A stretch of 52,279 nucleotides of DNA, taken from Acidithiobacillus ferrivorans. GTDB taxonomy: Bacteria; Pseudomonadota; Gammaproteobacteria; Acidithiobacillales; Acidithiobacillaceae. The position numbers were made by a program, and so were the translations under genes. The stretch covers positions 1 through 52,279 of the forward strand of contig DYJM01000005.1 of NCBI GenBank assembly GCA_020723125.1, in the 5' to 3' direction. Of this stretch, positions 9,176-47,813 are shown in pieces; the stretch's first letter is position 1, and each line of letters starts with the position of its first letter. Under the pieces are notes generated by a model that saw only the letters and a list, made by a program, of their open reading frames with translations, did not search any database and was not told where the DNA came from.

Positions 9176-9177
9176 GT

Positions 9178-10624: not shown

Positions 10625-10678
10625 GGGCTCGTTCCGTGCCAAGGCAGTCAGGCGCGAGGCACTCATTGTGCATGGCAC

Positions 10679-27272: not shown

Positions 27273-27337
27273 TTATGCGGCTTCGGGCAGCGCTGAGTGG
27301 GCTGACGTGGGCTTCATAAACGACGGGGGCGCTACAA

Positions 27338-27682
27338 TCAGGAATGCGTGATCGGCATGTGCATTTTTTCCATGGTTTTTTTGCCGCATTTTCCGTCATG
27401 GGCCTTGATGGCAGATTTACTGACGCAATTTGCCTCCTTCGCCTTGGCGTTATTTGCAGTTTTGGGGGGCATCCTGTTCATGTTTTTTGAGCAATTGCCT
27501 TCCTGTTGACCTTTGCCCATCATCTGCGAGCAATTGCCTTCATTTTTGGCGCTACTGCCCATCATGGCAACTGGCTGCAGGGTCGCCGTGCCGGTGGTAG
27601 CGGCAATGGCGGTTGCCGGCAATGCCGCCATGGACAAAGCAAAAGCAGAACCAAGTGCAGTAGAAATATAGGTTTTTTTCAT
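27338..27682 (-). CDS. Secreted Cys-motif peptide, HvfA/bufferin-like putative MNIO substrate
   Basis: Sec signal MKKTYISTALGSAFALSMAALPATAIAA; four spaced Cys motifs EGNCS, EGNCS, EANCV, DGKCG; immediately 5' of DUF692. Confidence 0.78.
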   Translation of the reverse strand: MKKTYISTALGSAFALSMAALPATAIAATTGTATLQPVAMMGSSAKNEGNCSQMMGKGQQEGNCSKNMNRMPPKTANNAKAKEANCVSKSAIKAHDGKCGKKTMEKMHMPITHS

Positions 27683-30697: not shown

Positions 30698-32812
30698 TTA
30701 ACGGGTTCCGGCACCGGCAACAATGATCAGCACCACCACCATGGCGACGAGGATGTAGCTGGCATAAGTGTTTACATGTCCTTTATGCATTCTGGCGAGG
30801 CGACTCGCGATGTACAGGGCCATGCGAATGCCGGGCCGGATGACCAGGCGTTCGGAGATATTGGTAATGACCTGATGATAACTGCGGGTCAGCACAAAGG
30901 CGCCGTGGCGTTTTTCGTTTTCTTCGATCAGGGGATGAAAAAATCCCTGAAACACCACGCGTACCGGCGCAGCAAAGGTGGTGGCGGTGTAGGTCATTTC
31001 CGGACGCAGGCGGGTCAGTCCGGCATCCCACAAAGTATTTCGGGTGACCCGGCGCTGGCGTATTACACGGACCAGAATCCAGACGCTGCCAAGCATCAAT
31101 ACCAGTACCACGAAGGTGAGCAAGGTGGACATGGCGTAGACCACAGGGGCAGGGGTTTGATCGAGATGCATCACGACCAGACTGCGCAAGGGCAGGAATG
31201 CTGCGCCCAGGCTGGCCCCGATGGGGTCCAGGGCATGGCGGACAGCCATGGGAACCTGGCTGGGAATATGGAAGAAATCAGGCACCAGAGAAGCCGTGGG
31301 ATTCGTCCCCAGCAGGGTGGCCGCCAACCTGGACAAGACCGGGATGACCAGGGTGGCTGCCAGGCCCAGCAACAAAGCCAGCAGTGCCAACAATCCCATG
31401 GGCAGCACGACGCTGAGGGGCGCTTTTTTGGCATTGGCAGCCTGGGGGGAGCGCGGCAGCCCCATCAAGGCACTCCCGGGGAGCATGATAAAGCAGGTCA
31501 GGGCGAGCCCGGAGGTCAGTGCCAGCAGGGCCCCGGAGAGCGCGAAGGTGATGCGCACGGGGATATCCGGTATTTCGACGACGCGTAGCAGGGATTCCAG
31601 CAATAACCATTCACTGACAAAACCGTTAAAAGGCGGGAGTGCGGCAATGGCAAAAGCACCGACAAGAAAAAAGCTGCCCAGAGCCGGCAGGCGTTTCATC
31701 AGCCCACCCAGTTCATCCAGGTTATGCGTGCCGGTGCTGGCGTCAATGCCACCCGCGCCCAGAAACAGCAGGGTCTTGAAGGTGGAATGGTTGATCATGT
31801 GATACAGGCCTGCCACCATGCTGGCCCCGCCGAGCAGGGGATGCCCATAGGCGGCGAAGGTCAGGCCGGCGCCAATACCAGCGGTAGCAATTCCCATGTT
31901 TTCCACCGAACTCTGCGCCAGCAGACGTTTCATGTCTTTTTCAACGAGCGCATAGATAATGCCGATGAGTGCAGTGAGCGCGCCGCTGCTGAGAATAATC
32001 AGGCCGAGATGCGGTTGATGCAGAGCAATGGGGGCGTCGATACGCAAAAAAGCATACAGTCCCAGATTGAGCGTGGCACCGGAGAGAATGGGTGAGGTGG
32101 AGCGCGGTGCGGTACCATGGGCTGCAGGTAACCAGACATTGAGGGGAATGATGCCGGCTTTCATGCCAAATCCGAAAAAGGCCAACAAGCCCGCGACCAG
32201 CAATAACTTGGGAGACATTTCCGGAACCGCATGGGCAATTCCGCTCAGTTGTGGCGTTCCTGCGGCAGAAGCAAGCAGCAGCAGGCTCACCAGACCGGCC
32301 AGACTACCCAATTCAGAAAGCGCGAGGGTGAGCAGGCCTGCGGCCACCGGTTTGCTTTGCCGGGTTTCAAAGGTGATGAGACCCCAAATAGCCAGTGCGG
32401 CCAGTTCCCAGCAAAAAATGAACGCAACAATACTGCCGGCCAGGAAAAAACCGATCATGCCGGCTAAGGTCAGCATGGCGATGGCCAGAAAAAGGCCACG
32501 TCGTCCAGATGTATACAAGTTGGCATCGCGCGTCACAAAGGGAATGGCAACGGCAAAAACACTGGAGGTGATGAGTATGAGCAGCCCTCCCAGTGGCGTT
32601 TGCACAAAAGTAAACGGGCCAATGATGGGTAGGCTGAGGGTAATCAGTGGCAGGCTCTGCCCTGCGGCAATGGCCATGACCCCCTGGATGCCCGCCAGCA
32701 CGCAGGCGCTGCTCATCAGCAACCAGGCCAGCAGGGCCGGAATCCGGCGGCCGGGAATCAGTGCCAGTAATGGGCCAGCGGCAAAAAGCAGGTAAGCAAT
32801 GATGTAAAGCAT
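30698..32812 (-). CDS. Ehr-like cluster A: HyfB/NuoL-like proton-conducting membrane subunit
   Basis: GAGLTFAAYGHPLLGGASMVAGLYHMINHSTFKTLLFLGAGGID, GMKAGIIPLNVWLPAAHGTAPRSTSPILSG. Confidence 0.88.
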   Translation of the reverse strand: MLYIIAYLLFAAGPLLALIPGRRIPALLAWLLMSSACVLAGIQGVMAIAAGQSLPLITLSLPIIGPFTFVQTPLGGLLILITSSVFAVAIPFVTRDANLYTSGRRGLFLAIAMLTLAGMIGFFLAGSIVAFIFCWELAALAIWGLITFETRQSKPVAAGLLTLALSELGSLAGLVSLLLLASAAGTPQLSGIAHAVPEMSPKLLLVAGLLAFFGFGMKAGIIPLNVWLPAAHGTAPRSTSPILSGATLNLGLYAFLRIDAPIALHQPHLGLIILSSGALTALIGIIYALVEKDMKRLLAQSSVENMGIATAGIGAGLTFAAYGHPLLGGASMVAGLYHMINHSTFKTLLFLGAGGIDASTGTHNLDELGGLMKRLPALGSFFLVGAFAIAALPPFNGFVSEWLLLESLLRVVEIPDIPVRITFALSGALLALTSGLALTCFIMLPGSALMGLPRSPQAANAKKAPLSVVLPMGLLALLALLLGLAATLVIPVLSRLAATLLGTNPTASLVPDFFHIPSQVPMAVRHALDPIGASLGAAFLPLRSLVVMHLDQTPAPVVYAMSTLLTFVVLVLMLGSVWILVRVIRQRRVTRNTLWDAGLTRLRPEMTYTATTFAAPVRVVFQGFFHPLIEENEKRHGAFVLTRSYHQVITNISERLVIRPGIRMALYIASRLARMHKGHVNTYASYILVAMVVVLIIVAGAGTR

Positions 32813-33549
32813 CAGGGCTGTTCCTCCAGAGCGGCAGGTGTCACGCGCCCGACCAGGCTGAGCAAGCCATGAATAATGGCCAGCGGCGGTGGTGGGCAGC
32901 CAGGCAACCACAAATCTACCGGGACAATTTTTTCCAGCCCGCCTGCACAGGCAAAGCTTTCACCAAATACCCCGCCATGGATGGCGCAGGTCCCCATGCC
33001 CATGACCCGTTTGGGTTCAGGCATGGCCGCGTAAGCCTTGCTGATGGCCGTGCGCATGGCGTCGGTAATCGGACCGGCAACCAGCAGGACATCGGCATCG
33101 CGGGGTGTTGCGGTCACGAAAATACCGAGGCGATGGAGGTTGTAGGGCGGCGCATCAATGAGGCGGACTTCATTGACACAGGCTCCGCAGGCCCCGGCAT
33201 CTACGTACAGCACCTGAAGAGAGCGCGTGAAACGTGATTCCAGAGCAGGCCGGGCAGCAGCGCTGGGAGCCCCCCAACTGAAATCCGTGCTCCACGGCAG
33301 GGCATTATCGCCGTGGCGGCAGCGTTGGCAATGAATACAGTGGGAAAAATCGACGGCGACGCCATCCCTCCCCGCCTGACTAACAGCTTTCAGTGCCTGG
33401 GTGGGGCAAGCTGCAGCAATTTCCTCAGCATGCCCAGTCTGTAGGGCGCAGGGACGACCCGGCGTAATGCCGGCGCTGTCTTCTGCACCATCCGGCCAGG
33501 CGGTCGTGGTGATTCCCCGTTGCAATCCATAATATGGCCAGAAGCTCAT
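32812..33549 (-). CDS. Ehr-like cluster A: NuoB/HyfI-like small subunit with degenerate N-terminal ferredoxin-like segment
   Basis: YVDAGACGACVNEVRLIDAPPYNLHRLGIFVT, MGTCAIHGG, LPGCPPPPLAIIHGL; N-terminal CIHCQRCRHGDN lacks the fourth Cys of a standard 4Fe-4S motif. Confidence 0.87.
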   Translation of the reverse strand: MSFWPYYGLQRGITTTAWPDGAEDSAGITPGRPCALQTGHAEEIAAACPTQALKAVSQAGRDGVAVDFSHCIHCQRCRHGDNALPWSTDFSWGAPSAAARPALESRFTRSLQVLYVDAGACGACVNEVRLIDAPPYNLHRLGIFVTATPRDADVLLVAGPITDAMRTAISKAYAAMPEPKRVMGMGTCAIHGGVFGESFACAGGLEKIVPVDLWLPGCPPPPLAIIHGLLSLVGRVTPAALEEQP

Positions 33550-35120
33550 CAGCGATCGTTCTCCGCAATGGACAGGCCCCAGGTGGCCAGAATGATGGGA
33601 AAATCCTGAAATGCCGCGCCTTCAATGGCTCTTTCAAAAGCATGCCAGTTGCGAAAACCCGGAGTACCAAGGCGCAGGCGGGTGATCGTGCCGTCCCCGG
33701 TGCAGCGTAGCCAGTGAAAGGTGGCACCGGAAGGCGCTTCCACCCAGGATAGGGCATGGCCTTCCTGAATCGGGCAAGGGCTTTGCACTGGCCCTTCTGC
33801 CATAAAAGGCAGCAAGTCCAGAATGATTTTTACGCTGATCCGGCTTTCGGCAAAAAATATGCGCAGTCTCGCGTAGCCATCCCCTTCCTGTTCTACAGGA
33901 ACATCCGGTGACAGGAATACATATTGGCCGTAAGGCAAATGGCGGCGCAAATCAATGCTTCTGCCGGAAGCCCGGGCAATGGGGCCGACTACGCCATATA
34001 TCCGCGCCAATTCATTACTCAGAGTCCCCATTTCCTCGATGCGGTCGAGAAAGCTGGAACTGCCTTCCAGATGTTTTTCCAACTGCTGCATGCGTTGGTC
34101 CAGTTCTGGCAGCGTTTGTCTGAGCAGCTTGATCTTGCCTTCATCCAGGTCTTCGCGCAGACCGCCGGGTGTCAATACCCCAAAAAAATACCGATGTCCG
34201 CAGAGTCGGGCACTGAGGCGCAGCAAGTCTTCGACAATTCCCTGGGCCAGCGCCTTGGCTACAGACAGTGCCGTGGACCCGGCAATTTCCGCAATATTCG
34301 CAGCGTGGTGACGGATACGTTCCAGTTCTGCAAACACGATGCGCAATTGTTGGGCGCGGGTGGGTATCTGACAGGCAGCGATCTGCTCCAGTGCCTGACA
34401 GTAAGCCCAAGCATGGGCAAAGGCGGCAGCGCCGGCAAAGCGTTCAGCCAGGAGCAAGCCCTGATCCACCGTGCGACCTTCGGCGATTTTTTCGACACCG
34501 CGATATTTGTAAAACAGGCGGGTATGCAAGTAGCGAATCTGTTCACCGGGGGTTTCCAGCAGCCAAAGGCCGGATTCGTTGAAATCTCCCCAGACGGGAC
34601 CGACGGGAAAGACCATGGCCCCCTCTTCCTGCAAAAGACGGGGGGGTGCCCAGTCCGCTCCAGAGCCATGCAGATCGGGACGATGTTTCCCGTCAAAACT
34701 GCGGCGCATGGGATCAAGGCCTTCCGGCCAGTCATCATCATGCAAGACAAAATCGCCCAGAAAGGGATGCCCGCTGAAACGCAGGCCATATAAATCCCAG
34801 GCCTCCCGTTCATGCCAGTCAGCGGCATGCACCGTATCGCTGATAGCCGGTAATTCTGTGCCCGCCGGAGCCTCTACTTTGAGCTCAATCAGATTGCCGG
34901 TGGCGGGCAGATAAAAAAGATAATGCACGCTCAGTGCATCTGCACTTTCTTCAACCAGAAGGGTGGCAAATTCAGCCTCTTCCTCTTCCATCAGATGGCG
35001 GGTCAGTGCCGGTAGCTGTTCTGCAGAACAAAGCAACTGCAGCCATTGTTCGGAACGCTTCTGCATCTGCAGGTTGGGAATACTCTGCAGCCATTCCTGC
35101 AGTGTCTTTGGAATGCTCAT
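33549..35120 (-). CDS. Ehr-like cluster A: NuoCD/HyfG-like large subunit without NiFe ligands
   Basis: NuoC-like N-terminus; KYRGVEKIAEG, ERFAGAAAFAHAWAYCQALE (no CxxC), C-terminal LATWGLSIAENDR (no DPCxxC). Confidence 0.87.
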   Translation of the reverse strand: MSIPKTLQEWLQSIPNLQMQKRSEQWLQLLCSAEQLPALTRHLMEEEEAEFATLLVEESADALSVHYLFYLPATGNLIELKVEAPAGTELPAISDTVHAADWHEREAWDLYGLRFSGHPFLGDFVLHDDDWPEGLDPMRRSFDGKHRPDLHGSGADWAPPRLLQEEGAMVFPVGPVWGDFNESGLWLLETPGEQIRYLHTRLFYKYRGVEKIAEGRTVDQGLLLAERFAGAAAFAHAWAYCQALEQIAACQIPTRAQQLRIVFAELERIRHHAANIAEIAGSTALSVAKALAQGIVEDLLRLSARLCGHRYFFGVLTPGGLREDLDEGKIKLLRQTLPELDQRMQQLEKHLEGSSSFLDRIEEMGTLSNELARIYGVVGPIARASGRSIDLRRHLPYGQYVFLSPDVPVEQEGDGYARLRIFFAESRISVKIILDLLPFMAEGPVQSPCPIQEGHALSWVEAPSGATFHWLRCTGDGTITRLRLGTPGFRNWHAFERAIEGAAFQDFPIILATWGLSIAENDR

Positions 35121-36601
35121 GCGGGGACCTCCAGCATGAGCGCCGCTTCATGCACCAGATGGAGCAAGGGTGCCGGGAGATAAAAGCCAAAAACAAACAT
35201 CGGAATGAAGGCTATGGCCATGGCCGCCAGACTGCTGCGCGGAATCTTGATGGTCGGCGCGCTGTGTTGTTCCGGGATATTGTCCGAGGCACCAAAAGCA
35301 ATCCGCGTAGCCTGATAGGCAAGGGCAATAAAAGCGATAACAATAAATGCGGTTAACAGGCCGGTAGGCAGATACTGACCACTGCTGTAACCCGTATAGA
35401 GAATTTCGAATTCCGACAAAAAGAGGGCAAAGGGTGGCGCGCCGGCAATGGCCAGAGTACCGAGCACCAAGGCCCAGCCGGCAGCGGGAGAACGACTGAT
35501 CAAACCCCTTGCTTTGGCAATTTCCTGGGTTCCAAAAATAATCCCCGCCAAACCCGCTGCAAAAAAGCAGAAGGACTTGGTAAAACCATGGGCAAATAGC
35601 TGATAGACCGTTCCCTGTTCATGCACAGCGGCACCAATTCCGCAGGCGGTGAGGATGATGCCCATGTGTTCGATGGTGGAATAGGCAAACATTCTCTTGA
35701 AGTCGTGCACCTGTATTAACATGAATGCAGCGCTGCCCACCGTAATGAGACCGGCAGTCATATACCAGGCGGCCGGGTCATGAATACCCGGATTTGCCGC
35801 CAGCGCTGGATAGATGCGGAGCAGCATATACAGGGCAGCACTGGTTTCCACTCCGGACAGAACCGCACAGACAGAGGCGGGAGCCTGACTATGCGCATCC
35901 GGGAGCCAGGTGTGCATGGGCACCAGACCCGTTTTGGCACCAAAACCAATCAGCCACAGGACAAAAGCCAGGAGCAGGAGAGGGGTGGAGATATGCGGTG
36001 CGGCGCGCAGCAGGCCATTCCAGGTGGGTGCCTGGCCGGCTGCATGGGTTCCGTAGTACAGCATCAGGACACCGAGCAAAGCAATCATGGCACCCATGCT
36101 GGTCAATGCGACATATTTCCAGGCCGCTTCCAGCGCTTCCGCGCGATCCTCATAAGCCACCAGAAAAGCAGAAAATACCGTGGTTAACTCAATGGCAATC
36201 CACATCAATGCGAGGTTGGCAACCAGTGGAACGGCCAGAATCACCAGAGCGAATACATTCATCAACGGAAAATATTGACGATAGCGTGGTTCGGCTTCGT
36301 CGCTGGCCTGTTCCTGCTGTCTGGCCCATAAATACCCTATGGCATAGAGGGACGACGTGAAATAAACAAAGCAGACCGGGAGCAAATACAGGGCACCCAA
36401 CGCGTCCAGGGCAAACAGGCCATCGCTGGCATGGATCGGACCCTGGGCCTCGACATGCCAGGCTGCGCTGGTCCCTAAAAGCAGGGTGATGAAAGCCGCA
36501 AGGACACTGAAGTAAGGTGCTGCCCACCGATTGAGCAGCGCCAGCAGGGCGCCGGACAGGGGCACCAATAAAATAAGGACGGGCAAGCAGTCAGCGTTCA
36601 T
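35117..36601 (-). CDS. Ehr-like cluster A: HyfF/NuoN-like proton-conducting subunit
   Basis: GFGAKTGLVPMHTWLPDAHSQAPASVCAVLSGVETSAALYMLLRI, MFAYSTIEHMGIILTACGIG. Confidence 0.88.
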   Translation of the reverse strand: MNADCLPVLILLVPLSGALLALLNRWAAPYFSVLAAFITLLLGTSAAWHVEAQGPIHASDGLFALDALGALYLLPVCFVYFTSSLYAIGYLWARQQEQASDEAEPRYRQYFPLMNVFALVILAVPLVANLALMWIAIELTTVFSAFLVAYEDRAEALEAAWKYVALTSMGAMIALLGVLMLYYGTHAAGQAPTWNGLLRAAPHISTPLLLLAFVLWLIGFGAKTGLVPMHTWLPDAHSQAPASVCAVLSGVETSAALYMLLRIYPALAANPGIHDPAAWYMTAGLITVGSAAFMLIQVHDFKRMFAYSTIEHMGIILTACGIGAAVHEQGTVYQLFAHGFTKSFCFFAAGLAGIIFGTQEIAKARGLISRSPAAGWALVLGTLAIAGAPPFALFLSEFEILYTGYSSGQYLPTGLLTAFIVIAFIALAYQATRIAFGASDNIPEQHSAPTIKIPRSSLAAMAIAFIPMFVFGFYLPAPLLHLVHEAALMLEVPA

Positions 36602-37271
36602 GGAGTTTATCCAGTGTACCCACCCGGGTAGACCCTGTGACCCGGCGAATACTGCGAATGAGCAAACCGATGACCAGGGCGACAATCGGCACATCGACGG
36701 CTGCGGCAATTTCGGCAATAACCGTCAGGTTGTGCACAATGGCTATGGATCCAAAAAAGGCGCCGTTTTCCATGATGAGTAAGCCCATCAATTGCGCAAC
36801 ACTTTCCCGACGCAGGGCGACCGTAAATGCCCCCCAAAGCACCATGATCAATCCGGTCGGCAGATTGATGGCCGCAAAAGGCACCCCATGCAGGGTCGGC
36901 AGTACTGGCGCTACCGCAAACCAGCCAACCAGAGCGAGCAGGGCGGCAACCAGAACCGAGGCAGGTATTCCCATGGCCTGATCTACTTCGCGGCGACCAT
37001 ATACCTCTTCGCCGGCTGCCCAGCGCAGTACCAATGGAACGGCAATGACTTTGGTCGTGAAGGTGATCAGCGCCACCCAGAGCAGGTTGACCGCTTGCAG
37101 GGCGTAAGCCAGTGCCAGAGCAGATGCGGTCAGAGCGCTGGCCTGCCACATGAAAAAGCGCAGGGAGGCCAGCATCTGCCGGGACACCATGACTCCCAGT
37201 CCGAATATCACAAAAAGAGCCGCTATCGAGCCGTCAATGCTCAGCATGATGGCGCTGACCGGGGCCATCAT
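36591..37271 (-). CDS. Ehr-like cluster A: HyfE-like subunit
   Basis: Multi-TM protein with LMGLLIMENGAFFGSIAIVHNLTVIAEIAAAVDVPIVALVIGLLIRSI (NuoK-like segment). Confidence 0.82.
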   Translation of the reverse strand: MMAPVSAIMLSIDGSIAALFVIFGLGVMVSRQMLASLRFFMWQASALTASALALAYALQAVNLLWVALITFTTKVIAVPLVLRWAAGEEVYGRREVDQAMGIPASVLVAALLALVGWFAVAPVLPTLHGVPFAAINLPTGLIMVLWGAFTVALRRESVAQLMGLLIMENGAFFGSIAIVHNLTVIAEIAAAVDVPIVALVIGLLIRSIRRVTGSTRVGTLDKLHER

Positions 37272-38230
37272 GCGATGCCTACCAGGCGGATGCTGACCGC
37301 AAACAGACAAATGACAAAGGCTACGGCCAGGAATTCAGAAATACGGAACAGTCGCAACTTGGCGAGGGTGGTTTCCACCAGCGCCAGCACAATCACAAAA
37401 GCCAGCAGTTTCAGGAGCACCAGCCCCATGGCAGAGAGCACGGCGGGCCACTGGGTCGTGGCGGCCAGACCCCAGGGCGTGACGAGCACATTCACAAAAA
37501 TCAGGGCCAATACCATGAGCTTGCTGGCCCCTCCCCATTTCATGAGAGCCGCGCTGCTGCCCGAATATTCCAGTCCCTTGGAATGACCAATCATGGCAAT
37601 TTCCACTTTTCCTGCCGGACTGTCTACCGGAATGCGTCCTTCATCCGCCAGAATCAGCAGGAAAAAAGCGAGAATGACCATGAGGTGTGTGGGTTGCAGC
37701 ATGTTGCTCCAGGAAGCACCCCAGGTGGCATTCACAAAGTAAGGAATGGTGCTGTTGGCCACATAAGACACACTGAAAAACACCATGATGAAAACCGGTT
37801 CCGCCAGAAAACCCACCATATGCGTTCGGCTGGCCCCTACAGCCGCATAGATATTGCCCGTATCCATGCCCGCCAGGGCTACGAAAAAGCCGGCAACCGC
37901 CATGAGGAAGCCTACGGCCACCATATCACCCATGAAGGCAAAAAACAGAGGATAAGCCGTGAACGCAGGAATCAGCAGAACCACGAAAATGGGCATCACA
38001 AAAGCAACAATCGGGGCGAAGCGAAATACCCAGGTGGACTGTTCTGAAACCACTTCATCCTTGCCGAACAGTTTCCAGATGTCGCGATAAGTCTGCCAGA
38101 TGCTGACCCCGCTTTTACCCTGAATATTTTCTTCGATACGGTGCAGTACACCTTCCACCAGAGGAGAAAACACCAGAATAAAAGCCACCTGCCCGAGATT
38201 CAGGACGAGGTGCGTCCAGATGGGGGTCAT
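37268..38230 (-). CDS. Ehr-like cluster A: NuoH/HyfC-like membrane subunit
   Basis: SIWQTYRDIWKLFGKDEVVSEQSTWVFRFAPIVAF, GFLAEPVFIMVFFSVSY, DEGRIPVDSPAGKVEIAMIGHSKGLEYSG. Confidence 0.88.
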   Translation of the reverse strand: MTPIWTHLVLNLGQVAFILVFSPLVEGVLHRIEENIQGKSGVSIWQTYRDIWKLFGKDEVVSEQSTWVFRFAPIVAFVMPIFVVLLIPAFTAYPLFFAFMGDMVAVGFLMAVAGFFVALAGMDTGNIYAAVGASRTHMVGFLAEPVFIMVFFSVSYVANSTIPYFVNATWGASWSNMLQPTHLMVILAFFLLILADEGRIPVDSPAGKVEIAMIGHSKGLEYSGSSAALMKWGGASKLMVLALIFVNVLVTPWGLAATTQWPAVLSAMGLVLLKLLAFVIVLALVETTLAKLRLFRISEFLAVAFVICLFAVSIRLVGIA

Positions 38231-38673
38231 GACAAGCCTACCTTGTAGCCCAACAACGCCAGAATATCACCGATTCCCATGAGCCCCAGCGCCCATTTCC
38301 AGCGGGCGCCCTGCACCCATAGCCCCAGAGTGAGGCCAACGCCCATCAGCGTCATATTGGCAGCAACCAGGGGGAGGTAAATCAGGCGCGGGAACAACAC
38401 CGCGACGCTGAGGGGAATGGCAGCGCCGACCACCAGTTCCTCAATGCCATGAACAGCTGCCCCTGCGTGCTCTATGGCCTGAAGGAGGCCCTCCAGGTCA
38501 ATGTTATCCCCCTCGACGTTGATCAGGGTGCCGACCGTCTCCTGATCGACCTCTTCTACAGAAATGTTGAAGCCCTCCACGCCGCGCACCCGGTCTATAG
38601 CGACGGCTATATCGCTCAGGCTGGGTTGGGCAAAGGCCTTGTCAACATCCAGTACAACGCGGCGAATACGCAT
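38227..38673 (-). CDS. DUF211 domain fused to C-terminal membrane segment
   Basis: MRIRRVVLDVDKAFAQPSLSDIAVAIDRVRGVEGFNISVEEVDQETVGTLINVEGDNIDLEGLLQAIEHAGAAVHGIEELVVG (DUF211-like) followed by hydrophobic C-terminus. Confidence 0.75.
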   Translation of the reverse strand: MRIRRVVLDVDKAFAQPSLSDIAVAIDRVRGVEGFNISVEEVDQETVGTLINVEGDNIDLEGLLQAIEHAGAAVHGIEELVVGAAIPLSVAVLFPRLIYLPLVAANMTLMGVGLTLGLWVQGARWKWALGLMGIGDILALLGYKVGLS

Positions 38674-38941
38674 GAGAACTCCTTGGTTTATGAAGCACCC
38701 ATTCAATATCGTCAATGACATTCTGCCACGAACAGGGATGCTGATAGTGTCCGATAAATTCACAGCCAGTTGTCGGAGGTTTTTTGTGAAACCGGAGTTT
38801 GGGAATTGCAGGGATAACATGGGCGGTACCATTGCTGCAAATCCAGAGATCTACGCCGACCTTAGGATATTCTTCGGTCTTTCTTAAGACTCTGTCGGTG
38901 AGACTTTCCATGGATTGTTTGAGCGCAACGAGTTGACCCAT
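38642..38941 (-). CDS. Hypothetical protein, 99 aa
   Basis: ORF MGQLVALKQSMESLTDRVLRKTEEYPKVGVDLWICSNGTAHVIPAIPK..., overlapping the DUF211 gene start; same operon direction. Confidence 0.5.
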   Translation of the reverse strand: MGQLVALKQSMESLTDRVLRKTEEYPKVGVDLWICSNGTAHVIPAIPKLRFHKKPPTTGCEFIGHYQHPCSWQNVIDDIEWVLHKPRSSHAYSPRCTGC

Positions 38942-39175
38942 AGTCAGATCCCCGCAACCCTGTATGTTGTTTTAATTGTTATGATGGATAATTTTGTTAA
39001 TTCAAAAATAATCAAACTGCCTCCCACATGCCAAATAATATTTGGATTCATGTAGAAGTCATCAGCCACAATGGCGGTTATTTGGTGGACTTCATCACCA
39101 TGACAATTATTTTATTGTTATGCAGTTAATCCGTCAAGTTTTCTCCCTGTTTTGTTTTCTGTTTTTTATAGATTT

Positions 39176-39562
39176 TTAAGATATTCGAGCAAGATTTTCT
39201 TGTGCCGAAACACGTACTGCGTGGGCCGGATGTTTACTTAGCTTCTCGAGTGCCCGGTTTTTTTCAGGCCCCGCAGGCAAATGATCAATGGCATTGAGAA
39301 TGGCCATGCCCTGAACCACATCAACGGGATACTCCAGGGCACACTCAGCCAGAGGGCCGGCAGCCTCTGGATGTTGTTGATTGGCGAGACTGAGTATGGC
39401 CCCCATTCTTACTTCCGAATGGGGATTTTTGAGTGCCCAGATCAAACGATCATAATAAGGGGTTTGCCGTTCCCAGGCCTCAATGTTGCGTCCACAAGCC
39501 GGACAATTCTCCACTCCGATTGGGATTTCAGCGAAGCAGAGCGGGCAGTAATGATGATTCAT
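39176..39562 (-). CDS. Zinc-ribbon plus HEAT-like repeat protein
   Basis: YCPLCFAEIPIGVENCPACG zinc ribbon; LIWALKNPHSEVRMGAILSLANQ and KLSKHPAHAVRVSAQENLARI repeats. Confidence 0.72.
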   Translation of the reverse strand: MNHHYCPLCFAEIPIGVENCPACGRNIEAWERQTPYYDRLIWALKNPHSEVRMGAILSLANQQHPEAAGPLAECALEYPVDVVQGMAILNAIDHLPAGPEKNRALEKLSKHPAHAVRVSAQENLARIS

Positions 39563-39876
39563 GCGCAGCCGCAGTCAGCTTCCCAGCGCAGAATATGATT
39601 GCCGGGTACCAATTCGAGCAGGTGGGGCATGACCGCATCGACGGTCTCCGGTTCGTCGAAAAACTCCAGTACCAAGGGCAGATGCACATTCAGGCGCAAT
39701 ACATCATCGGCATGAACCACGCCCTTGCTGCCAAAGCCGGCAATACCCCGGAATGCGGTGACCCCATGCACCTTGTACTGATCGTGGAGCATACGAAATA
39801 TCTCCTCCATCAAATTGTGGCCATCGTGTTTATCACCCTCTTTGATGTAAATACGGACTACGGAAACGTTGGTCAT
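39559..39876 (-). CDS. DUF190 family protein
   Basis: VRIYIKEGDKHDGHNLMEEIFRMLHDQYKVHGVTAFRGIAGFGSKGVVHADDVLRLNVHLPLVLEFFDEPETVDAVMPHL. Confidence 0.88.
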   Translation of the reverse strand: MTNVSVVRIYIKEGDKHDGHNLMEEIFRMLHDQYKVHGVTAFRGIAGFGSKGVVHADDVLRLNVHLPLVLEFFDEPETVDAVMPHLLELVPGNHILRWEADCGCA

Positions 39877-39890
39877 GATTCTCTCCTCTC

Positions 39891-40268
39891 TTAAATACTG
39901 CGGGATATCCAGGCACCGGCAAATGCCGCTGCTACACACAGGAACAGTGAAGAAAACATATAGAGCAAACCTTTCAGTGCTTCGCCGTTTTCAAAAAGAA
40001 CCAGAGTCTCCAGGGAAAAGGTCGAGAAGGTGGTATAAGCACCCAGGCCCCCGGTAAGCATGCCTGTACGCAATTCCGGACTGAGAGAAATGCGTTCGAG
40101 GGTTTCAAAAAAAAGGAAACCCATGATGAAGCAGCCCATGACGTTGATACTCAGGGTTGCCCAGGGGAAATCACGCCCGAATACCGTTTGTACCAGCAGA
40201 GTCTGTCCATATCGTGCCCAGGCACCCAAAACGGCAAATACGGCGATGAAGCCGAAAGTGGCAAACAT
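39891..40268 (-). CDS. crcB: Fluoride channel FluC/CrcB
   Basis: GFIAVFAVLGAWARYGQ, FPWATLSINVMGCFIMGFLF, LRTGMLTGGLGAYTTFSTFSLETLVLFENGE. Confidence 0.95.
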   Translation of the reverse strand: MFATFGFIAVFAVLGAWARYGQTLLVQTVFGRDFPWATLSINVMGCFIMGFLFFETLERISLSPELRTGMLTGGLGAYTTFSTFSLETLVLFENGEALKGLLYMFSSLFLCVAAAFAGAWISRSI

Positions 40269-40285
40269 TTTTACTCCTTACTCAA

Positions 40286-42250
40286 TTAAATATAAAAAAC
40301 ACTCGCAAAAATAATGATGAGCAGTACTCCGATATAGGCCAGATAGGCATTCAGTGAACCATTTTGCAAGGCCAGTCCCAGGCGATCACTCAAGATTTGC
40401 ACAAAGCGCACCACTGGACGAAATAACCAGGGGCCAAATACCGGGGCCTGACTGTAATCAAAATGCAGTTCACGCACGAAATAACTTCTTTCACTGTGGC
40501 TTTTCCGGGTATTGGTGCGGGGGCGGTAGACAAAGCTGTAGAATTCACGCAAAGCATTGGAAAAAGCCAAAGCCGTGACTGCATTATTGGCCGGTATCTG
40601 GCGCAACCCATGTCCCCAGACTGGCACCCGCCCGCGCCCCTGACGAAGATGACTCCAGCCCAGCATGGCTAATGGAATCAGGGATAGTAGCAGTCCCATC
40701 AGGAGCAGCAGCGGTGGTGAAATAAAGGCAAAATGAAAACGCAGAGGGATCAGGATCGGTCCTTTCACCATACTGGACAGGGCGGCGGGAACAGCGGGCC
40801 AGTTATCGTCGGCGAGAAAGCCGAGGGTCCAGGGCAGTGCTGCAGCATACCCCAGAACCAGCAGGCCCAAAGCAAGAATGGGCCAGCGTCCGGCAATGCG
40901 GTGTTGATTTTCCTCGCGACCCAGTAAACCCAGGCCGAAGACCTTGATCATGGTGGCCAGGGCGATGGCGGCAGTCAGTGCCAACCCCGCTCCACCCAAA
41001 GCCAGGGTGACTCTGGCGGCAGAACTGGTCAGATGAAAATCCTGAAAGACCGTCTGGAATAAATACCATTCTCCCGCAAACCCGGCAGTAGGCGGCATCG
41101 CGGCCAGGCTCATGGCACCCAGCAGTGCGCCGATGCCCAGGGTCCAGGGCGCGAGTGCCAGCACCCGGCTCTGGGCAATGGCATAGTCTCCACGTACGCT
41201 GGCAACCCGGTCGGCGCTGAGCATCATGCTGCCCTTGGCCAGGCTGTGACCGCCCAGATGAATGAGACCTACGGTCCAGGCCAGGGTACTGAGCATATTC
41301 AGACCGTCAGCCCGGAACAGGGAGGCGGCGCCCAGCGCGACGACCGCTAATCCGGCGTTTTCTGCCGTGGAAAAAGCCAGCAGACGGCGCCAGTCTTCCT
41401 GCTGAAAGGCATATAAAATGGCCAGAATAGCGGTGATGGTGCCCAATGCAACCAGTAAAATACCGGTGCCGGTGGCGCTGCTCCGGGGTAACCAGTCAAG
41501 CATGGCCCGGCCCAGGGCAAAATAGGCCACATTGAGGATGATGCCGGATAATAATGCTCCCGATGCGCCACTGCCACTACTGTAGGCACCGGGATACCAC
41601 TCGTAGAAGGGCAAAATACCCAGCTTGGCACCGAAGCCAATGATGAACAGAATGGCAATGCCAAAGGCCGCTGATCCATAAGTTGCCCAGGACCCCGCCC
41701 AGGCCGTAAATTCAGTATTCTTGGCTCCCAGTAAGAGCAGGCACAGCAACAAAGCGACGGCGCCAATCTCGAGCAGAGCGAGCATATACAAATTGGATTG
41801 ACCGCTTTTTTCACGATTCTGCAGCCCATCGGCAAGGAGCATGATGGCGCCGCCAAAACTCAAAAATTCCCAGGCAATCAGAAAGGCGATCCCTTCCTGT
41901 AAACCGGCAACGCCGAGACTTCCCAGTAAAGCGAGCCCTGCCCCGGACATCCAGATGCCGGGATTTTTGGCGCGGCTGGGGGAAAGGAAGGCGGCCAATG
42001 CGGCGAGTCCACCCCAGAAGACCAGCCAGGCAGCAGCCGCCTGCAGGTGCCAGGTCACGGGAATGCTGCCCAGGGACCAAAGCTGTCCAGTGTCAGGACC
42101 AGATCCTGCAAGCAGACTGAGAACGCTGCCCAGCAGTATCGCCACGCTGCCGAAAATGAGGGCAATCCGTGCGCCTAAACTCAGGCGCAGCAGACCAAGG
42201 ATAATGGCGAGAACGAAAAGCAGTGCGCCCAGCAGGAAACTATCGAGCAT
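40286..42250 (-). CDS. Ehr-like cluster B: HyfB/NuoL-like proton-conducting subunit
   Basis: GFGAKLGILPFYEWYPGAYSSGSGASGALLSGIILNVAYFALGRAML, LLAFSTAENAGLAVVALGAA. Confidence 0.87.
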   Translation of the reverse strand: MLDSFLLGALLFVLAIILGLLRLSLGARIALIFGSVAILLGSVLSLLAGSGPDTGQLWSLGSIPVTWHLQAAAAWLVFWGGLAALAAFLSPSRAKNPGIWMSGAGLALLGSLGVAGLQEGIAFLIAWEFLSFGGAIMLLADGLQNREKSGQSNLYMLALLEIGAVALLLCLLLLGAKNTEFTAWAGSWATYGSAAFGIAILFIIGFGAKLGILPFYEWYPGAYSSGSGASGALLSGIILNVAYFALGRAMLDWLPRSSATGTGILLVALGTITAILAILYAFQQEDWRRLLAFSTAENAGLAVVALGAASLFRADGLNMLSTLAWTVGLIHLGGHSLAKGSMMLSADRVASVRGDYAIAQSRVLALAPWTLGIGALLGAMSLAAMPPTAGFAGEWYLFQTVFQDFHLTSSAARVTLALGGAGLALTAAIALATMIKVFGLGLLGREENQHRIAGRWPILALGLLVLGYAAALPWTLGFLADDNWPAVPAALSSMVKGPILIPLRFHFAFISPPLLLLMGLLLSLIPLAMLGWSHLRQGRGRVPVWGHGLRQIPANNAVTALAFSNALREFYSFVYRPRTNTRKSHSERSYFVRELHFDYSQAPVFGPWLFRPVVRFVQILSDRLGLALQNGSLNAYLAYIGVLLIIIFASVFYI

Positions 42251-43031
42251 ATTGGCCTCCTGTTACTTTTTGCGGCATGCGTTCTACCAGAAGCAGCAGG
42301 GCATGAATGAGTGCTGCCGGATTGGGTGGACAACCCGGCAGCCAGATGTCCACCGGGAGAATGCCCTCCAGTCCGGATCCGCTGGCATAACCCTCATCCA
42401 TGGGCGCGCCTGAGACGGCACAGGTGCCGGTAGCCATGACACTACGGGGTTCGGGCATGGCTTCCCAGGTGGCCAGCAGCACGTCATGCATGGGTGCAGT
42501 TACGGGTCCCGTGACCATCAGCAGGTCGGCAAAACGCGGTGAGGGCGTAAAGAAAATGCCCAGTCGGTGCAAATTATAAAAGGGATTGTCCAGCGCACTG
42601 ATTTCGGACTCACAGGCATTACAGGACCCGGCATCCACATGGCGAATGTGCAGACTGCGGCGCTGGCTGGCCGCAATGCGTTTCCGCAGGTCTGCGGCCT
42701 CAGCACTTTCCAGTGCCGCTGACCAGATCAGATCACTGCGCTGGCGCACGCCAAAAGCCCAGTCGCAGGAACTTTGCATGGCCCCCTCCGGGCATTCCTC
42801 CACGCAACGCTGGCAGACAATACAGCGCCCGTAATCGATCACCGGTTCGCCATCCACCTGATGAATGGCATGAGTGGGGCAGCTCTCCACACAAAGATCA
42901 CAACCGCTGCGGCAGGCCGCAATATCCAGACGCGGCATTCCCAATACCCCTTCCTGACCATCGGGTCCACTTTGGGGCCAGCGGGTAGCGGCTTTACCGG
43001 CTTTAAGTCCTGTCCAGGTCCATAATGGCAT
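42240..43031 (-). CDS. Ehr-like cluster B: NuoB/HyfI-like small subunit with intact 2x[4Fe-4S] ferredoxin-like N-terminus
   Basis: CRSGCDLCVESCPTHAI and CIVCQRCVEECPEGAM; HVDAGSCNACESEISALDNPFYNLHRLGIFFT, GTCAVSGAP, LPGCPPNP. Confidence 0.9.
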   Translation of the reverse strand: MPLWTWTGLKAGKAATRWPQSGPDGQEGVLGMPRLDIAACRSGCDLCVESCPTHAIHQVDGEPVIDYGRCIVCQRCVEECPEGAMQSSCDWAFGVRQRSDLIWSAALESAEAADLRKRIAASQRRSLHIRHVDAGSCNACESEISALDNPFYNLHRLGIFFTPSPRFADLLMVTGPVTAPMHDVLLATWEAMPEPRSVMATGTCAVSGAPMDEGYASGSGLEGILPVDIWLPGCPPNPAALIHALLLLVERMPQKVTGGQYAR

Positions 43032-43040
43032 GATTTTCTC

Positions 43041-44534
43041 CTAGCGGTCGCAACCGGCAATGGTGAGGCCGAAGCTCGCTTCGTTAATGGCGTAATCCAT
43101 CATGTTGGTACCGTGCACCGTCAGTGGAAACACCCGCCAGTTGGAAAACGAGGGTGATTTGATCTTGACCCGTTGCAGGCGTCCATCCTCAATGCGGACG
43201 GCGTAAATCAGCGTACCGCGCGGGGTTTCGGCCCAGCCCAGGCCCTGCTGTGCTCCGCCTGGCACGTCGAATTCCGTATGCACAGGGCCAGCCTTGAGAC
43301 GACCCGAAGCCTGTACCAGCAGGGCAATGGCTTCCCGCAGGGCTTCCCCACGGACCTCGCTACGGGCCATGGCATCACCTTTCTGGCGCACCGGCACGTT
43401 GAAACGTAATTTGTGGTAAGCCGCATAAGGATGGTCCCGGCGCAAATCGCGATCGAGCCCGGAAGCGCGGGCGACGGGACCGGTAGCCCCCTGATCAAAA
43501 GCGGCACTTGGCGAAAGTACGCCGGTGCCCATCAGACGATCCAGGTGGGTCGCCGTTTGCTGCAGCCGATCCAGATAAGCCTCGCCTTCATCAATGATGG
43601 GCTCCAGGGCATGGGCCAAATGCTCGGCCTGCAAGTCCCGGCGGAGCCCACCTACCCGCAGCAGGCTACGTAAATAGCGGGAACCCGTTAATTCTCCGGC
43701 GAGTTGTTTGACTTTTTCTTCCATCAGGAAACCGGTGGCGGCACCGACTTTGAGGGTCGTGGTTTTGGACAATTGTCCGAAATAGTGAAAATGGTTATAG
43801 AGACGCTCCAATTCCACGATTATCACCCGCAGCAGTTGCGCCCGGGGCGGGACTTCAATGCCCCAGGCATTTTCAACGGCCTGACAATAGGCGAGAGCAT
43901 GGCAGGCACTGCCCACTCCGGAAACCCGCTCGGCCAGGTAAACACTGCGCTGCGCGTCCTGGCCGGCAAAGCGGGCTTCCATGCCCCGGTGCTTGAAAAA
44001 CAGGCGCGGATGGTAGTGAAGAATGGCCTCACCAATATAGGAATAGTGAAATTCACCAGTTTCCACCACATCAGCCCGCACCGGCCCCCAGTACAAATCC
44101 TGCACCTGATCCCCCTGCACTTCGGGCATGGTGGGGGGCTGGTAAAGGCCGCTCAGGTGACCTGAACGGCCGTTTATGCCGAGGGGTGGCTGGGGGATGC
44201 TGAAACCTTCGTGAATGATCAGGGGGAAGGGTTCGGGGTGCCCGGTAAAATGCAGACCACCCAGGTCCTGCATTTCCCGTTCGTACCAGCCCAGGAGCGG
44301 TACAAGTGCTGCGAGCGAAGGAATGGTATCCGTGTCGCGTAATTCCAGCAGGACAAATTCGGGATTGTCTTTCTGGCTCAACAAATAACGCACGACGCAT
44401 TGCTGCCCTTCCCAGTCATGCCAGGCCATGAGGAAACGCATCCGCTGATCCAGGCATTCCTGAGCGACTGCTGCAAGCTGCCCCGCAGTGACAGAGCGAA
44501 TGCTGCAATGATTCATGGGACTGTGCATATTCAT
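43041..44534 (-). CDS. Ehr-like cluster B: NuoCD/HyfG-like large subunit without NiFe ligands
   Basis: FFKHRGMEARFAG, AERVSGVGSACHALAYCQAVENAWGIEVPPRAQLLRVIIVELERLYNH; C-terminal EASFGLTIAGCDR; no CxxC pairs. Confidence 0.88.
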   Translation of the reverse strand: MNMHSPMNHCSIRSVTAGQLAAVAQECLDQRMRFLMAWHDWEGQQCVVRYLLSQKDNPEFVLLELRDTDTIPSLAALVPLLGWYEREMQDLGGLHFTGHPEPFPLIIHEGFSIPQPPLGINGRSGHLSGLYQPPTMPEVQGDQVQDLYWGPVRADVVETGEFHYSYIGEAILHYHPRLFFKHRGMEARFAGQDAQRSVYLAERVSGVGSACHALAYCQAVENAWGIEVPPRAQLLRVIIVELERLYNHFHYFGQLSKTTTLKVGAATGFLMEEKVKQLAGELTGSRYLRSLLRVGGLRRDLQAEHLAHALEPIIDEGEAYLDRLQQTATHLDRLMGTGVLSPSAAFDQGATGPVARASGLDRDLRRDHPYAAYHKLRFNVPVRQKGDAMARSEVRGEALREAIALLVQASGRLKAGPVHTEFDVPGGAQQGLGWAETPRGTLIYAVRIEDGRLQRVKIKSPSFSNWRVFPLTVHGTNMMDYAINEASFGLTIAGCDR

Positions 44535-45994
44535 GGCTGCACCATAAAGGCCTGTTGGAAAAATCCCCACAAGCCACTGGGCCACCAAAGTCCCAGTACC
44601 AGTACAGGAATCAGGGCCAGCCACATGGGCAGGCTATTCCACAGGGATAACTTGAGCGTGGGCACTTCATCGGGTTCCGGTTCCGGGCCCCAGATCATGC
44701 GCCGGAAATGATTCATGAAGGCCGTGAAGATGAGAATGAGCAGAATGGCCATCACCCAGACTGCCCAAGGGTTGGGGCTGAGAATGCCACCCCGCAAAAT
44801 GGTCAGTTCCGATAAAAACAAGCCGAAGGGCGGGGCTCCGGTAATAGCCACGGCACCCAGTAACCAGAGAGCACCCGTCACCGGATAGTAGCGCAGTACC
44901 TGACGCATTTTACTCATGTACTTGGTGTCGTAAGCTCGCATCATGTTGCCCGCCCCGAAAAACATCAGGGATTTATTCATGGAGTGATTGACCATGTGAT
45001 ACATGGCTCCGGCGAAGGCAATGGGGCCACCAAAGCCGAAACCAATGGCCAGCACCCCCATATGTTCCAGGGAAGAATAGGCCAGCATGCGCTTGGCGCC
45101 ATCCTGACGAACGATAAACATGCCTGCCACAAAGAGGGACAATACGCCCAGTACCAGCAGTGCAGTGTGCCCCATGAGGCTGTAACCACCACTGTCGACA
45201 ATGGATAAAAACCGGTAAATCCCCAGCAGGGCAATATTGAGCAAAGCACCGGAAAGCATGGCGGACACCGGGGCCGGACCTTCGCTATGGGCATCTGGAA
45301 GCCAGGTGTGCATGGGGGCGAGACCCACCTTGGTGCCAAAACCCACCAGCGTCAGGAGAAAAGACAAAAACAAAAGGGTTTCGGGAACCTTGGGGGCGAC
45401 TTCACGGAGATTGGCCCAGGTCAGGGCATAAGTCGGACCGAGGACGAAGGTGCCTCCCCAGTAAAACAGGATAATACCCAACAGGGCCAGGGCCAGACCC
45501 GCAGAAACGACGATCAGGTACTTCCAGGCCGCTTCGATGCATTCGGCTTCTTTCTCGAAACCCACCAGAAAAGCGCTGACAATGGTCGTGAAATCAATGG
45601 CAATCCAGAAAATGCCGGGATTGTTCATCAACGGTGCAATGAGCATGGTCAAGGCAAAACCCGCCTGCAGGGCGTAGTATTTGTGCAGTCGGGGCTTTTC
45701 TTCGGGCAGCAGGCGCATGTAGCCAATGGCGTAAATGGACGCCAGCAGGTAGACCAGGCCCACGCAAAACAGCACCCAGGCCCCCAGAGGGGTCAATAAA
45801 ATGTACTGCGCCCCGGTGACCAGAGCCTTATCGGGAACAGCCACGAGAATCGTTAGAGTCAGGCCGAAAACCGCTATGGAAGTCAGCAGGTTGAGATATT
45901 CAGCCAGATGTGGCCGACGCAGGGCCAGCATCAGAATGATGGCGACGGCGGGGATGATCCAGAGTGCGGCAATCAGCGCAGCAAAATTCACCAT
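44531..45994 (-). CDS. Ehr-like cluster B: HyfF-like proton-conducting subunit
   Basis: GFGTKVGLAPMHTWLPDAHSEGPAPVSAMLSGALLNIALLGIYRF, MLAYSSLEHMGVLAIGFGFGG. Confidence 0.9.
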   Translation of the reverse strand: MVNFAALIAALWIIPAVAIILMLALRRPHLAEYLNLLTSIAVFGLTLTILVAVPDKALVTGAQYILLTPLGAWVLFCVGLVYLLASIYAIGYMRLLPEEKPRLHKYYALQAGFALTMLIAPLMNNPGIFWIAIDFTTIVSAFLVGFEKEAECIEAAWKYLIVVSAGLALALLGIILFYWGGTFVLGPTYALTWANLREVAPKVPETLLFLSFLLTLVGFGTKVGLAPMHTWLPDAHSEGPAPVSAMLSGALLNIALLGIYRFLSIVDSGGYSLMGHTALLVLGVLSLFVAGMFIVRQDGAKRMLAYSSLEHMGVLAIGFGFGGPIAFAGAMYHMVNHSMNKSLMFFGAGNMMRAYDTKYMSKMRQVLRYYPVTGALWLLGAVAITGAPPFGLFLSELTILRGGILSPNPWAVWVMAILLILIFTAFMNHFRRMIWGPEPEPDEVPTLKLSLWNSLPMWLALIPVLVLGLWWPSGLWGFFQQAFMVQP

Positions 45995-45997
45995 GGC

Positions 45998-46678
45998 TTA
46001 ACCCACCAGCTTTTGCAGGCCACGGCTACTGGTTGTACCGGCATGAGTCTGGAGGAATCGGACCAGCATGCCGAAGGCCATGACGATTGTCAGCAAATCA
46101 AAGATGATCACCAGCTCAAGCAGGGCGGGCATACCTGGAACCAGAATCTGTGAGCCCAGAAATATCCCGTTTTCGATGACCAGCAAGCCAAGAATGTGAC
46201 TGATGGCTTCCGAACGCAAAATCATCATCAAAAAGCCGATGAGTTTCAGGCTGAACATGCAGGTCAGGGCCAGTACGGCAATATTGTCGGTCAGATGAAG
46301 GGCAACACCCAGTTGCCGGGATACCTCATAGGAAAAAATCACCAGTGCGGCACCGAGAATCATGCTGGAAGAAGGCTTCAGCAGGGGGGTGAATTCGCGC
46401 CGAATATCCAGTCTTTTGACCAGCCGGAGGACCAGATAGGGTAAAAAGGTGCCCCGAAACAAGGCCGTCAATGCGGCAATAATATACAGCTCGGGATAAT
46501 GTCCATAGTAGCCAATGGATGCAGAAATGGCCGCAATGGTCCAGGATTCCGCCGCAAAAGCATAAACATGATTTTTCAGCCAGTGTGAAGCGAGCATGAC
46601 AAAAGAAAAAACCAGCGCGAGGATCGCCAGCAGGCTGAATAATGAGGTGGCCAGCGGACCGAGATGAAATATCAGCAT
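45998..46678 (-). CDS. Ehr-like cluster B: HyfE-like subunit
   Basis: ISHILGLLVIENGIFLGSQILVPGMPALLELVIIFDLLTIVMAFGMLV, multi-TM. Confidence 0.85.
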   Translation of the reverse strand: MLIFHLGPLATSLFSLLAILALVFSFVMLASHWLKNHVYAFAAESWTIAAISASIGYYGHYPELYIIAALTALFRGTFLPYLVLRLVKRLDIRREFTPLLKPSSSMILGAALVIFSYEVSRQLGVALHLTDNIAVLALTCMFSLKLIGFLMMILRSEAISHILGLLVIENGIFLGSQILVPGMPALLELVIIFDLLTIVMAFGMLVRFLQTHAGTTSSRGLQKLVG

Positions 46679-46687
46679 GGGTCGCTC

Positions 46688-47629
46688 CTATAGTTGGTCG
46701 GCAACAATGGCCAATACGGCAAAAAGAAAAGACAGCGCCAGGGGTTCCTGATAGCGATAAAAGCGCAGACGGGACTGCATGGTATCGACACCCACCATCA
46801 GCAGGCCGATCACGCCGTATTTGGCCAGGATGACCAGTATGGCCAGGAGCACTGACGGAAAGCTGCCAGTGGTGGACAAACCCCAGGGAAACAGAAATAC
46901 ATTGAGAAAAATCGTGTATAAAATGAACTGTTTCATCCAGCCCGCCCATTTCAGCAGAGCCAGCAGGGGACCGGAATATTCCAGGATGCGCGCCTCATCA
47001 ATCATGTAGATTTCATAGGGGATCGTGGAATGGATGGGCAAGCGGTCAGTTTCCACGGTCAGCAGAATGAAAAAAGCCAGAATCAGGAAAATATGGGCAG
47101 GACTCCAGTAGGCTACCGGATTTTTGGCCAACAGATGATTGGCGACAAAAGGCAGCATGGAATGGTCCAGAAAAGTGATGCCTACAAATACCAGGATCAG
47201 CGTCGGTTCGGCGAGAATGCCGAGCATGACGGCGCGGCTGGAACCCAGGCCACCGAAGGGCTGGCCGGTATCCAGGCCGGCCAGCAGGATAAAAAAGCTG
47301 CCCAGGGTCAGAATCAGCCCGCCCCCCAGAATGTCGCCCATGTCCGAAAGCGGCAGGGGGAAGTTGGTCAGCACCGGAATGAGCATCGGCACGATGAGCA
47401 TGGCGGTGAACGCAACCACGGGTGCCCAGAAGAAAACCCAGGTGGCAGATTCGGGTACCAGCAACGACTTGTTGAACAGTTTCCAGAGGTCCCGATAGGG
47501 CTGGAAAATGGAAGGTCCCTGGCCGCGCTGAACACGCTCTTCCATAGTGGTGATAAAACCATGCAGCAGTGGTGCCAGAAACATCACAGTGAGCACCTGC
47601 CCGCACTGCAGGACGACGTCGCCGAGCAT
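46688..47629 (-). CDS. Ehr-like cluster B: NuoH/HyfC-like membrane subunit
   Basis: SIFQPYRDLWKLFNKSLLVPESATWVFFWAPVVAF, LGILAEPTLILVFVGITF, ETDRLPIHSTIPYEIYMIDEARILEYSG. Confidence 0.9.
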   Translation of the reverse strand: MLGDVVLQCGQVLTVMFLAPLLHGFITTMEERVQRGQGPSIFQPYRDLWKLFNKSLLVPESATWVFFWAPVVAFTAMLIVPMLIPVLTNFPLPLSDMGDILGGGLILTLGSFFILLAGLDTGQPFGGLGSSRAVMLGILAEPTLILVFVGITFLDHSMLPFVANHLLAKNPVAYWSPAHIFLILAFFILLTVETDRLPIHSTIPYEIYMIDEARILEYSGPLLALLKWAGWMKQFILYTIFLNVFLFPWGLSTTGSFPSVLLAILVILAKYGVIGLLMVGVDTMQSRLRFYRYQEPLALSFLFAVLAIVADQL

Positions 47630-47813
47630 AGCTTCCCCTTATAAGTATAACTTATAGCCTAAAGATCCCCGACTTCCCAGTCGAGATCAGTAGGAGTCAT
47701 TAGCCTATAAAGGCGGTTATTGGGCGGAATCCATCGCCATAATTTGTGTTGATGATAAGCAGAGACTGAAATCGGGTCAAGAGCGTTTTTAGGTTTATGC
47801 AAGACGCCATCAT

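Follow-up and report, generated by a model that had tools for sequence, protein, structure and literature searches.

Energy-converting hydrogenase-related (Ehr) complexes, described from comammox Nitrospira and Margulisbacteria, have the architecture of group 4 hydrogenases and complex I, including antiporter-type subunits, yet are missing the ligands of the nickel-iron (NiFe) site; their function is unknown, and formate dehydrogenase has been suggested as a partner (PMC10284858, PMC6349859). In the genus Acidithiobacillus, a NiFe-less Hyf-like complex is encoded by the published hyfBCEFGI cluster (PMC7735108, PMC2621215) and by hyf of A. caldus (PMC3826726). Separately, the crcB RNA motif has been linked to 'formate hydrogen lyase' since 2010 (PMC2864571), and formate hydrogen lyase genes under fluoride riboswitches are still taken to encode the true enzyme (PMC11139923). 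Here, we analysed a stretch of 52,279 nucleotides from Acidithiobacillus ferrivorans (GCA_020723125.1, contig DYJM01000005.1; hereafter the window, corresponding to contig C195 in an Acidithiobacillus-type genome of 2.4 Mb), carrying two consecutive six-gene clusters, A and B, that encode complexes of this kind. Like the published Ehr complexes, A and B have antiporter-type subunits and no NiFe ligands; unlike them, they form a distinct clade with fluoride riboswitches and with crcB and DUF190 as gene partners. An Ehr clade without a settled function is thereby tied to a defined signal, fluoride. In the part of the literature covered, we found no work that links Ehr complexes to fluoride or names these genes as NiFe-less Ehr.

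Two riboswitch-led operons encoding NiFe-less complexes

The two clusters are headed by fluoride riboswitches, regulators that had been overlooked in the original prediction made from this DNA. An Rfam search of 13.5 kb of the window, followed by a second search of the whole genome, detected exactly two fluoride riboswitches, one heading nuoH of B and the other heading DUF211 and nuoH of A. Both start no more than 5 nt from the -10 box of a predicted promoter, and the transcribed strand past the riboswitch showed no intrinsic terminator in A or B.

As originally predicted, the clusters are consecutive, lie on the minus strand and share the order nuoH-hyfE-hyfF-nuoCD-nuoB-hyfB, with intergenic gaps of -11 to +9 bp within each set of six. 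The units reach past these core genes to include the riboswitches, crcB, DUF190, DUF211 and the cyclopropane-fatty-acid (CFA) synthase gene, the B operon running on, at gaps of no more than 17 bp, into crcB, DUF190 and a zinc-ribbon/HEAT gene. Overlong starts of open reading frames (ORFs) were trimmed for B nuoCD (to 44534), A hyfB (to 32812) and A hyfF (to 36601). The features, in the order of transcription, are as follows.

47752-47780, minus strand: predicted sigma-70-like promoter of operon B, TTGACC-17-TATCAT, by consensus match only
47684-47747, minus strand: fluoride riboswitch heading operon B (RF01734, 55.1 bits, E 3.3e-13)
46688-47629, minus strand: B nuoH-like membrane subunit (PF00146)
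45998-46678, minus strand: B hyfE-like membrane subunit, assigned by position and homology to HyfE of relatives (no Pfam match)
44531-45994, minus strand: B hyfF-like antiporter-type subunit (PF00361; NCBIfam HyfF)
43041-44534, minus strand: B nuoCD/HycE-like large subunit without NiFe ligands (reading frame open from 44624, start codon ATG at 44534)
42240-43031, minus strand: B nuoB, fused to a HycF-like ferredoxin domain and encoding 12 Fe-S cysteines
40286-42250, minus strand: B hyfB-like antiporter-type subunit (PF00361)
39891-40268, minus strand: crcB, Fluc fluoride channel (PF02537)
39559-39876, minus strand: DUF190, a family with PII-like fold (PF02641)
39176-39562, minus strand: zinc-ribbon and HEAT-repeat protein (PF13646), recurring behind B, crcB and DUF190
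39109-39137, minus strand: predicted sigma-70-like promoter of operon A, TTGACG-17-TAAAAT, by consensus match only
39046-39108, minus strand: fluoride riboswitch heading operon A (RF01734, 56.5 bits, E 1.1e-13)
38227-38673, minus strand: DUF211 and transmembrane protein, first gene of operon A (PF02680)
37268-38230, minus strand: A nuoH-like membrane subunit (PF00146)
36591-37271, minus strand: A hyfE-like membrane subunit (PF00420, weak, under the cut-off)
35117-36601, minus strand: A hyfF-like antiporter-type subunit (PF00361; alignment)
33549-35120, minus strand: A nuoCD/HycE-like large subunit without NiFe ligands
32812-33549, minus strand: A nuoB, retaining the four proximal cysteines and, in a reduced ferredoxin domain, a single cluster (Cys IV-VII)
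30698-32812, minus strand: A hyfB-like antiporter-type subunit (PF00361; alignment)
29306-30559, minus strand: CFA synthase, starting 138 bp past A hyfB

The closest solved relatives of the B large subunit, in sequence and fold, are E. coli formate hydrogenlyase (HycE, 7z0s) and hydrogenase 4, which share the subunit set H-E-F-G-I-B with A and B. They also share the HycF-like ferredoxin domain, which in both A and B is fused N-terminally to NuoB. The likeness does not extend to the active site. Alignment with E. coli HycE (RVCGICGFAH...LDPCYSCTDR) places substitutions at four of four NiFe cysteines in A (ERFAGAAAF...SIAENDR) and in B (ERVSGVGSA...TIAGCDR), so the replacement of the RxCGxC and DPCxxC motifs had been read correctly; none of the collected relatives of families A, B and C (the last described below) has NiFe cysteines. 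The A and B large subunits stop exactly at ..DR, as NuoD does, and the C-terminal tail of hydrogenase precursors, which is processed in the E. coli enzyme, is absent. Within this genome, PF00374 matches only these two large subunits, and the maturation protein HypD (PF01924) was not found, the assembly being listed as 100% complete. Given the replaced cysteines, the restriction of PF00374 to A and B and the absence of HypD, a NiFe hydrogenase is not expected in this organism; A and B are NiFe-less, Ehr-like complexes and not hydrogenases, as had been proposed. Within the two operons, to which the search for formate dehydrogenase (FdhF) was confined, neither this enzyme nor a HycB partner is encoded. 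No NuoEFG genes lie near A or B either, which bears out the earlier report that an input module was missing nearby. Ordinary complex I is encoded by two gene sets on other contigs of this genome (C27 and C104, L064), one with a fused nuoCD.

An AlphaFold2 model of the B large subunit (predicted local distance difference test score 91) has HycE 7z0s as its nearest fold. Its catalytic cavity contains neither NiFe residues nor those of a quinone site: the His/Tyr of complex I are not present in B, where GPLHPGTHG and DRMDY of Aquifex NuoCD align to GPvraDvvE and ERvsgv. Around the emptied catalytic region lie charged residues that do not vary (Arg, His, Glu, Asp).

Distribution and phylogeny of the fluoride-led complexes

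A profile scan with A and B over 84,980 species genomes returned 213 relatives, and the best 80 were all of type B. Their hosts include Acidithiobacillus, Acidiferrobacter, Thiomonas, Nitrobacter, Labrys, Ancylobacter, Dyella, Acidobacteria and Acidithrix, among others. A riboswitch lies ahead of nuoH on the same strand in 70 of the 71 assessable B loci, at a median distance of 47 nt, and these span three phyla (Proteobacteria, Acidobacteria and Actinobacteria); in the exception, L184, it lies 1.3 kb upstream. Some of the loci scored with our riboswitch model R1 had also gone into building it; an independent check with the Rfam model confirmed the riboswitch in 12 of 12 B loci to which it was applied. 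The B locus also carries crcB in 49 of 80 cases and DUF190 in 47 of 80, and counts across phyla rule out that these two genes are chance neighbours.

Type A loci with a riboswitch of their own were found in Acidithiobacillus species, four other gammaproteobacterial genomes (in one of them, L126, by model R1 only), a Xanthobacteraceae metagenome-assembled genome and four actinobacterial loci. Four Acidithiobacillaceae have an A without its own riboswitch, placed behind the operon of B and read in the same direction. A strict-cut-off survey among 399 Pseudomonadota recovered A from its own genome only, which makes A rare among the genomes surveyed. A HycE query against Gammaproteobacteria returned mostly NiFe-less relatives.

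A third NiFe-less family, C, occurs in many Gammaproteobacteria, including this genome, and provides a matched negative control. Fluoride riboswitches are absent from all 27 family C loci, as against 70 of 71 B loci with one (Fisher p 3e-23, not corrected for relatedness); over three phyla, the regulatory association of B is near-perfect. In Acidithiobacillaceae, family C adjoins cbbM-cbbQ-cbbO, the RuBisCO genes; here it occupies about 7040-14200 of L063 (G000:C76), beside XRE-cupin, cbbO, cbbQ and cbbM, with no riboswitch. The family had seemed to be without nuoB, which we reject: a short nuoB is present, masked by a false overlapping ORF. From its cbbM and carbon-fixation neighbourhood, the published Acidithiobacillus hyf core cluster most likely belongs to family C and so to a family that is not riboswitch-led.

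This control bears on the suggestion in the original prediction that the complexes serve inorganic carbon or electron supply, or a general acid-pH homeostasis with no fluoride link. Acidophile hosts, a paralogous family beside cbbM-cbbQ-cbbO and the ties of A. caldus hyf to carbon fixation and carbonic anhydrase (PMC3826726) speak for it. However, the RuBisCO neighbourhood belongs to C, a separate clade without riboswitches, and we have therefore dropped a RuBisCO or CO2-supply link for A and B, which are riboswitch-led, with crcB following B, and have fluoride neighbours in nearly all genomes examined across three phyla. We consider that suggestion highly improbable.

To place the families, we built large-subunit trees in which the references were limited to HycE and HyfG of E. 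coli, NuoCD, and families A, B, C and M. Each of the families A, B and C is monophyletic, with A sister to B, and the two E. coli hydrogenase subunits fall outside; no grouping with authentic group 4 hydrogenases was seen. With Actinobacteria and plasmids added, the fluoride-led complexes form a single clade with a third branch, M, at a support of 91/98, which is under the usual 95 mark. Mapped onto this tree, the fluoride-led label requires 2 changes against 14 in shuffles, and 26 of 27 rows of the clade carry it. A and B represent an ancient split within a single clade of NiFe-less complexes. They mostly occur apart, and their adjacency is a local arrangement limited to Acidithiobacillaceae plus one or two other genomes, so that the two-module system once proposed from their side-by-side position is not supported.

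The tree also bears on whether these genes encode an authentic formate hydrogenlyase or group 4 hydrogenase, acting in a fluoride-induced metabolic shift. Formate hydrogen lyase is listed among fluoride-riboswitch genes (PMC2864571, PMC11139923), and HycE is the nearest solved structure. Against this, A and B lack all NiFe cysteines and an operon-encoded formate dehydrogenase, their genome has no HypD, and they lie outside the true hydrogenases. The sole authentic NiFe member found (L336, with CGIC) has no riboswitch. The probability that A and B are such enzymes is close to nil. The 'formate hydrogen lyase' genes of 2010 are very probably the same as A/B-type genes; in contrast to that reading, the fluoride-led clade is NiFe-less, has three branches (A, B and M) and is linked to crcB, DUF190 and CFA synthase. 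For this clade, the true formate hydrogenlyase reading fails.

A proposed role in fluoride stress

Together, the riboswitches, their distribution and the gene partners make it almost certain that the complexes act in the response to fluoride. As for what they do there, ion translocation is their likely output. The antiporter-type subunits have the TM5 Glu (TM, transmembrane helix), the TM7 Lys and their partner residues, with the TM8 Lys replaced by Asn and, in HyfF of B, the TM5 Glu replaced by Asp. Among B proteins, E128, K209, H335, K339 and E394 of HyfB are invariant in 71 of 71 and the TM7 K222 of HyfF in 77 of 77. The ion-pumping suggestion of the original prediction thus agrees with the intact pump residues of both A and B.

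We propose the following sequence of events. Fluoride would bind the leader RNA and switch on each operon; the riboswitches themselves are present, and induction is the expected consequence. At low pH, hydrogen fluoride (HF) enters by diffusion and dissociates, and fluoride leaves through CrcB. Entry of HF combined with exit of F- amounts, by established chemistry, to a net influx of protons that lowers the cytosolic pH and runs down the proton-motive force. Fluoride has indeed been tied to acidification and loss of the proton-motive force (PMC11139923). Because this HF entry and CrcB-mediated exit form an electrogenic proton leak, the simplest job for A and B would be that of a fluoride-induced outward pump, we infer, in which the HyfB/HyfF/NuoH arm moves protons outward and repays the leak. 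Of the earlier idea of pH homeostasis, this retains the core and discards a general acid-pH role with no link to fluoride. In B, and probably also in proteobacterial A, electrons from a putative donor could enter the ferredoxin-like domain of NuoB and pass to the proximal [4Fe-4S] cluster, driving the pump; their terminal acceptor would have to be reached with neither a NiFe site nor the quinone His/Tyr of complex I available. CFA synthase may in addition tighten the membrane. On balance we favour a picture in which A and B are fluoride-induced, ion-translocating, NiFe-less Ehr-type complexes of the fluoride stress response.

Redox drive in B is, in our estimate, somewhat better than an even bet. 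All 12 Fe-S cysteines are invariant among 76 of 76 B NuoB proteins, and A NuoB retains Cys IV-VII, the ligands of one of the two ferredoxin clusters, together with the proximal four. Several observations on relatives weigh against the proposed role. Among actinobacterial relatives, all four proximal cysteines are lost in L296 (Mycobacterium branderi) and L323, and one is lost in L324, L326, L327, L330 and L331, so redox drive cannot extend over the whole clade. Moreover, B has been lost repeatedly with crcB retained, which implies that B is not essential for fluoride resistance. In Acidithiobacillaceae without B, a lone riboswitch is mostly followed by nuoH fragments or the 3' end of hyfB and then an intact crcB; such scars lie between intact riboswitch and crcB at L279, L281-L284, L288, L290 and L291, and a few loci (L286 and L287, for example) show no recognisable scar. 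This riboswitch-scar-crcB arrangement means that B was deleted from the operon several times.

The cysteine losses would suit a redox-independent, Mrp-like cation/proton exchanger with a structural or regulatory Fe-S arm. Several of the cysteine-poor loci are riboswitch-led, the membrane arm is retained, and Na+/H+ antiporters rank next after exporters among riboswitch-associated classes (PMC11139923). On the other hand, the invariance of 12 cysteines across 76 B proteins is hard to explain without electron transfer, and A keeps precisely the ligands of one ferredoxin cluster and the proximal cluster. We find such an exchanger rather unlikely for the fluoride-led complexes. A direct exporter, with F- or HF captured in the emptied active-site cavity and driven out by the antiporter arm, would account for the fluoride regulation and for the invariant charged residues around that cavity. 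It has no precedent, CrcB of the same operon already exports F-, and B is dispensable where crcB is kept; we hold it to be very unlikely.

Returning to fluoride-induced ion translocation, it is conceivable, though doubtful, that a complex-I-type machine was recruited once to fluoride defence and that some lineages turned it into a redox-free ion exchanger or an HF/F- pump. If true, this would represent a relative of complex I that needs no electrons. L296, from a Mycobacterium branderi plasmid (NZ_AP022607.1), is a riboswitch-led complex that adjoins enolase and DUF190, and from its cysteine losses it is possibly a redox-dead relative of complex I. Outside the fluoride clade, the Hyf-like loci L293 (Allomeiothermus silvanus pMESIL01, 3996-11171), L334 and L337 have also lost most or all of the proximal cysteines of NuoB. 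The link between the fluoride-led complexes and fluoride is relevant to acidophile bioleaching, to organofluorine degradation and to the study of complex I relatives with few or no redox cofactors.

Neighbouring genes and other features of the window

Further riboswitch-led genes at B loci encode enolase, CLC, MutS-like pairs and CFA synthase, and pyrophosphatase shares islands with them. Enolase is a classical fluoride target. In Acidithiobacillus ferruginosus (L166, 5282-6577), an enolase gene, recognised by eye, adjoins the B operon on the opposite strand. CFA synthase comes after B, crcB, DUF190 and the zinc-ribbon/HEAT gene where A is missing, and has its own riboswitch in L210 and L211. 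A conjugative plasmid of Burkholderia cenocepacia (L292, NZ_CP073671.1) carries a fluoride island with seven riboswitches, comprising pyrophosphatase, HAD, DUF190, the B complex, CrcB, CLC and dynamin.

Elsewhere in the window, and identified by eye only, positions 16620-25659 hold consecutive RecC-, RecB- and RecD-like genes, and positions 25634-27682 a likely MNIO (DUF692) peptide-modification set consisting of a small Cys-rich secreted precursor, a DUF692-like protein and a partner.

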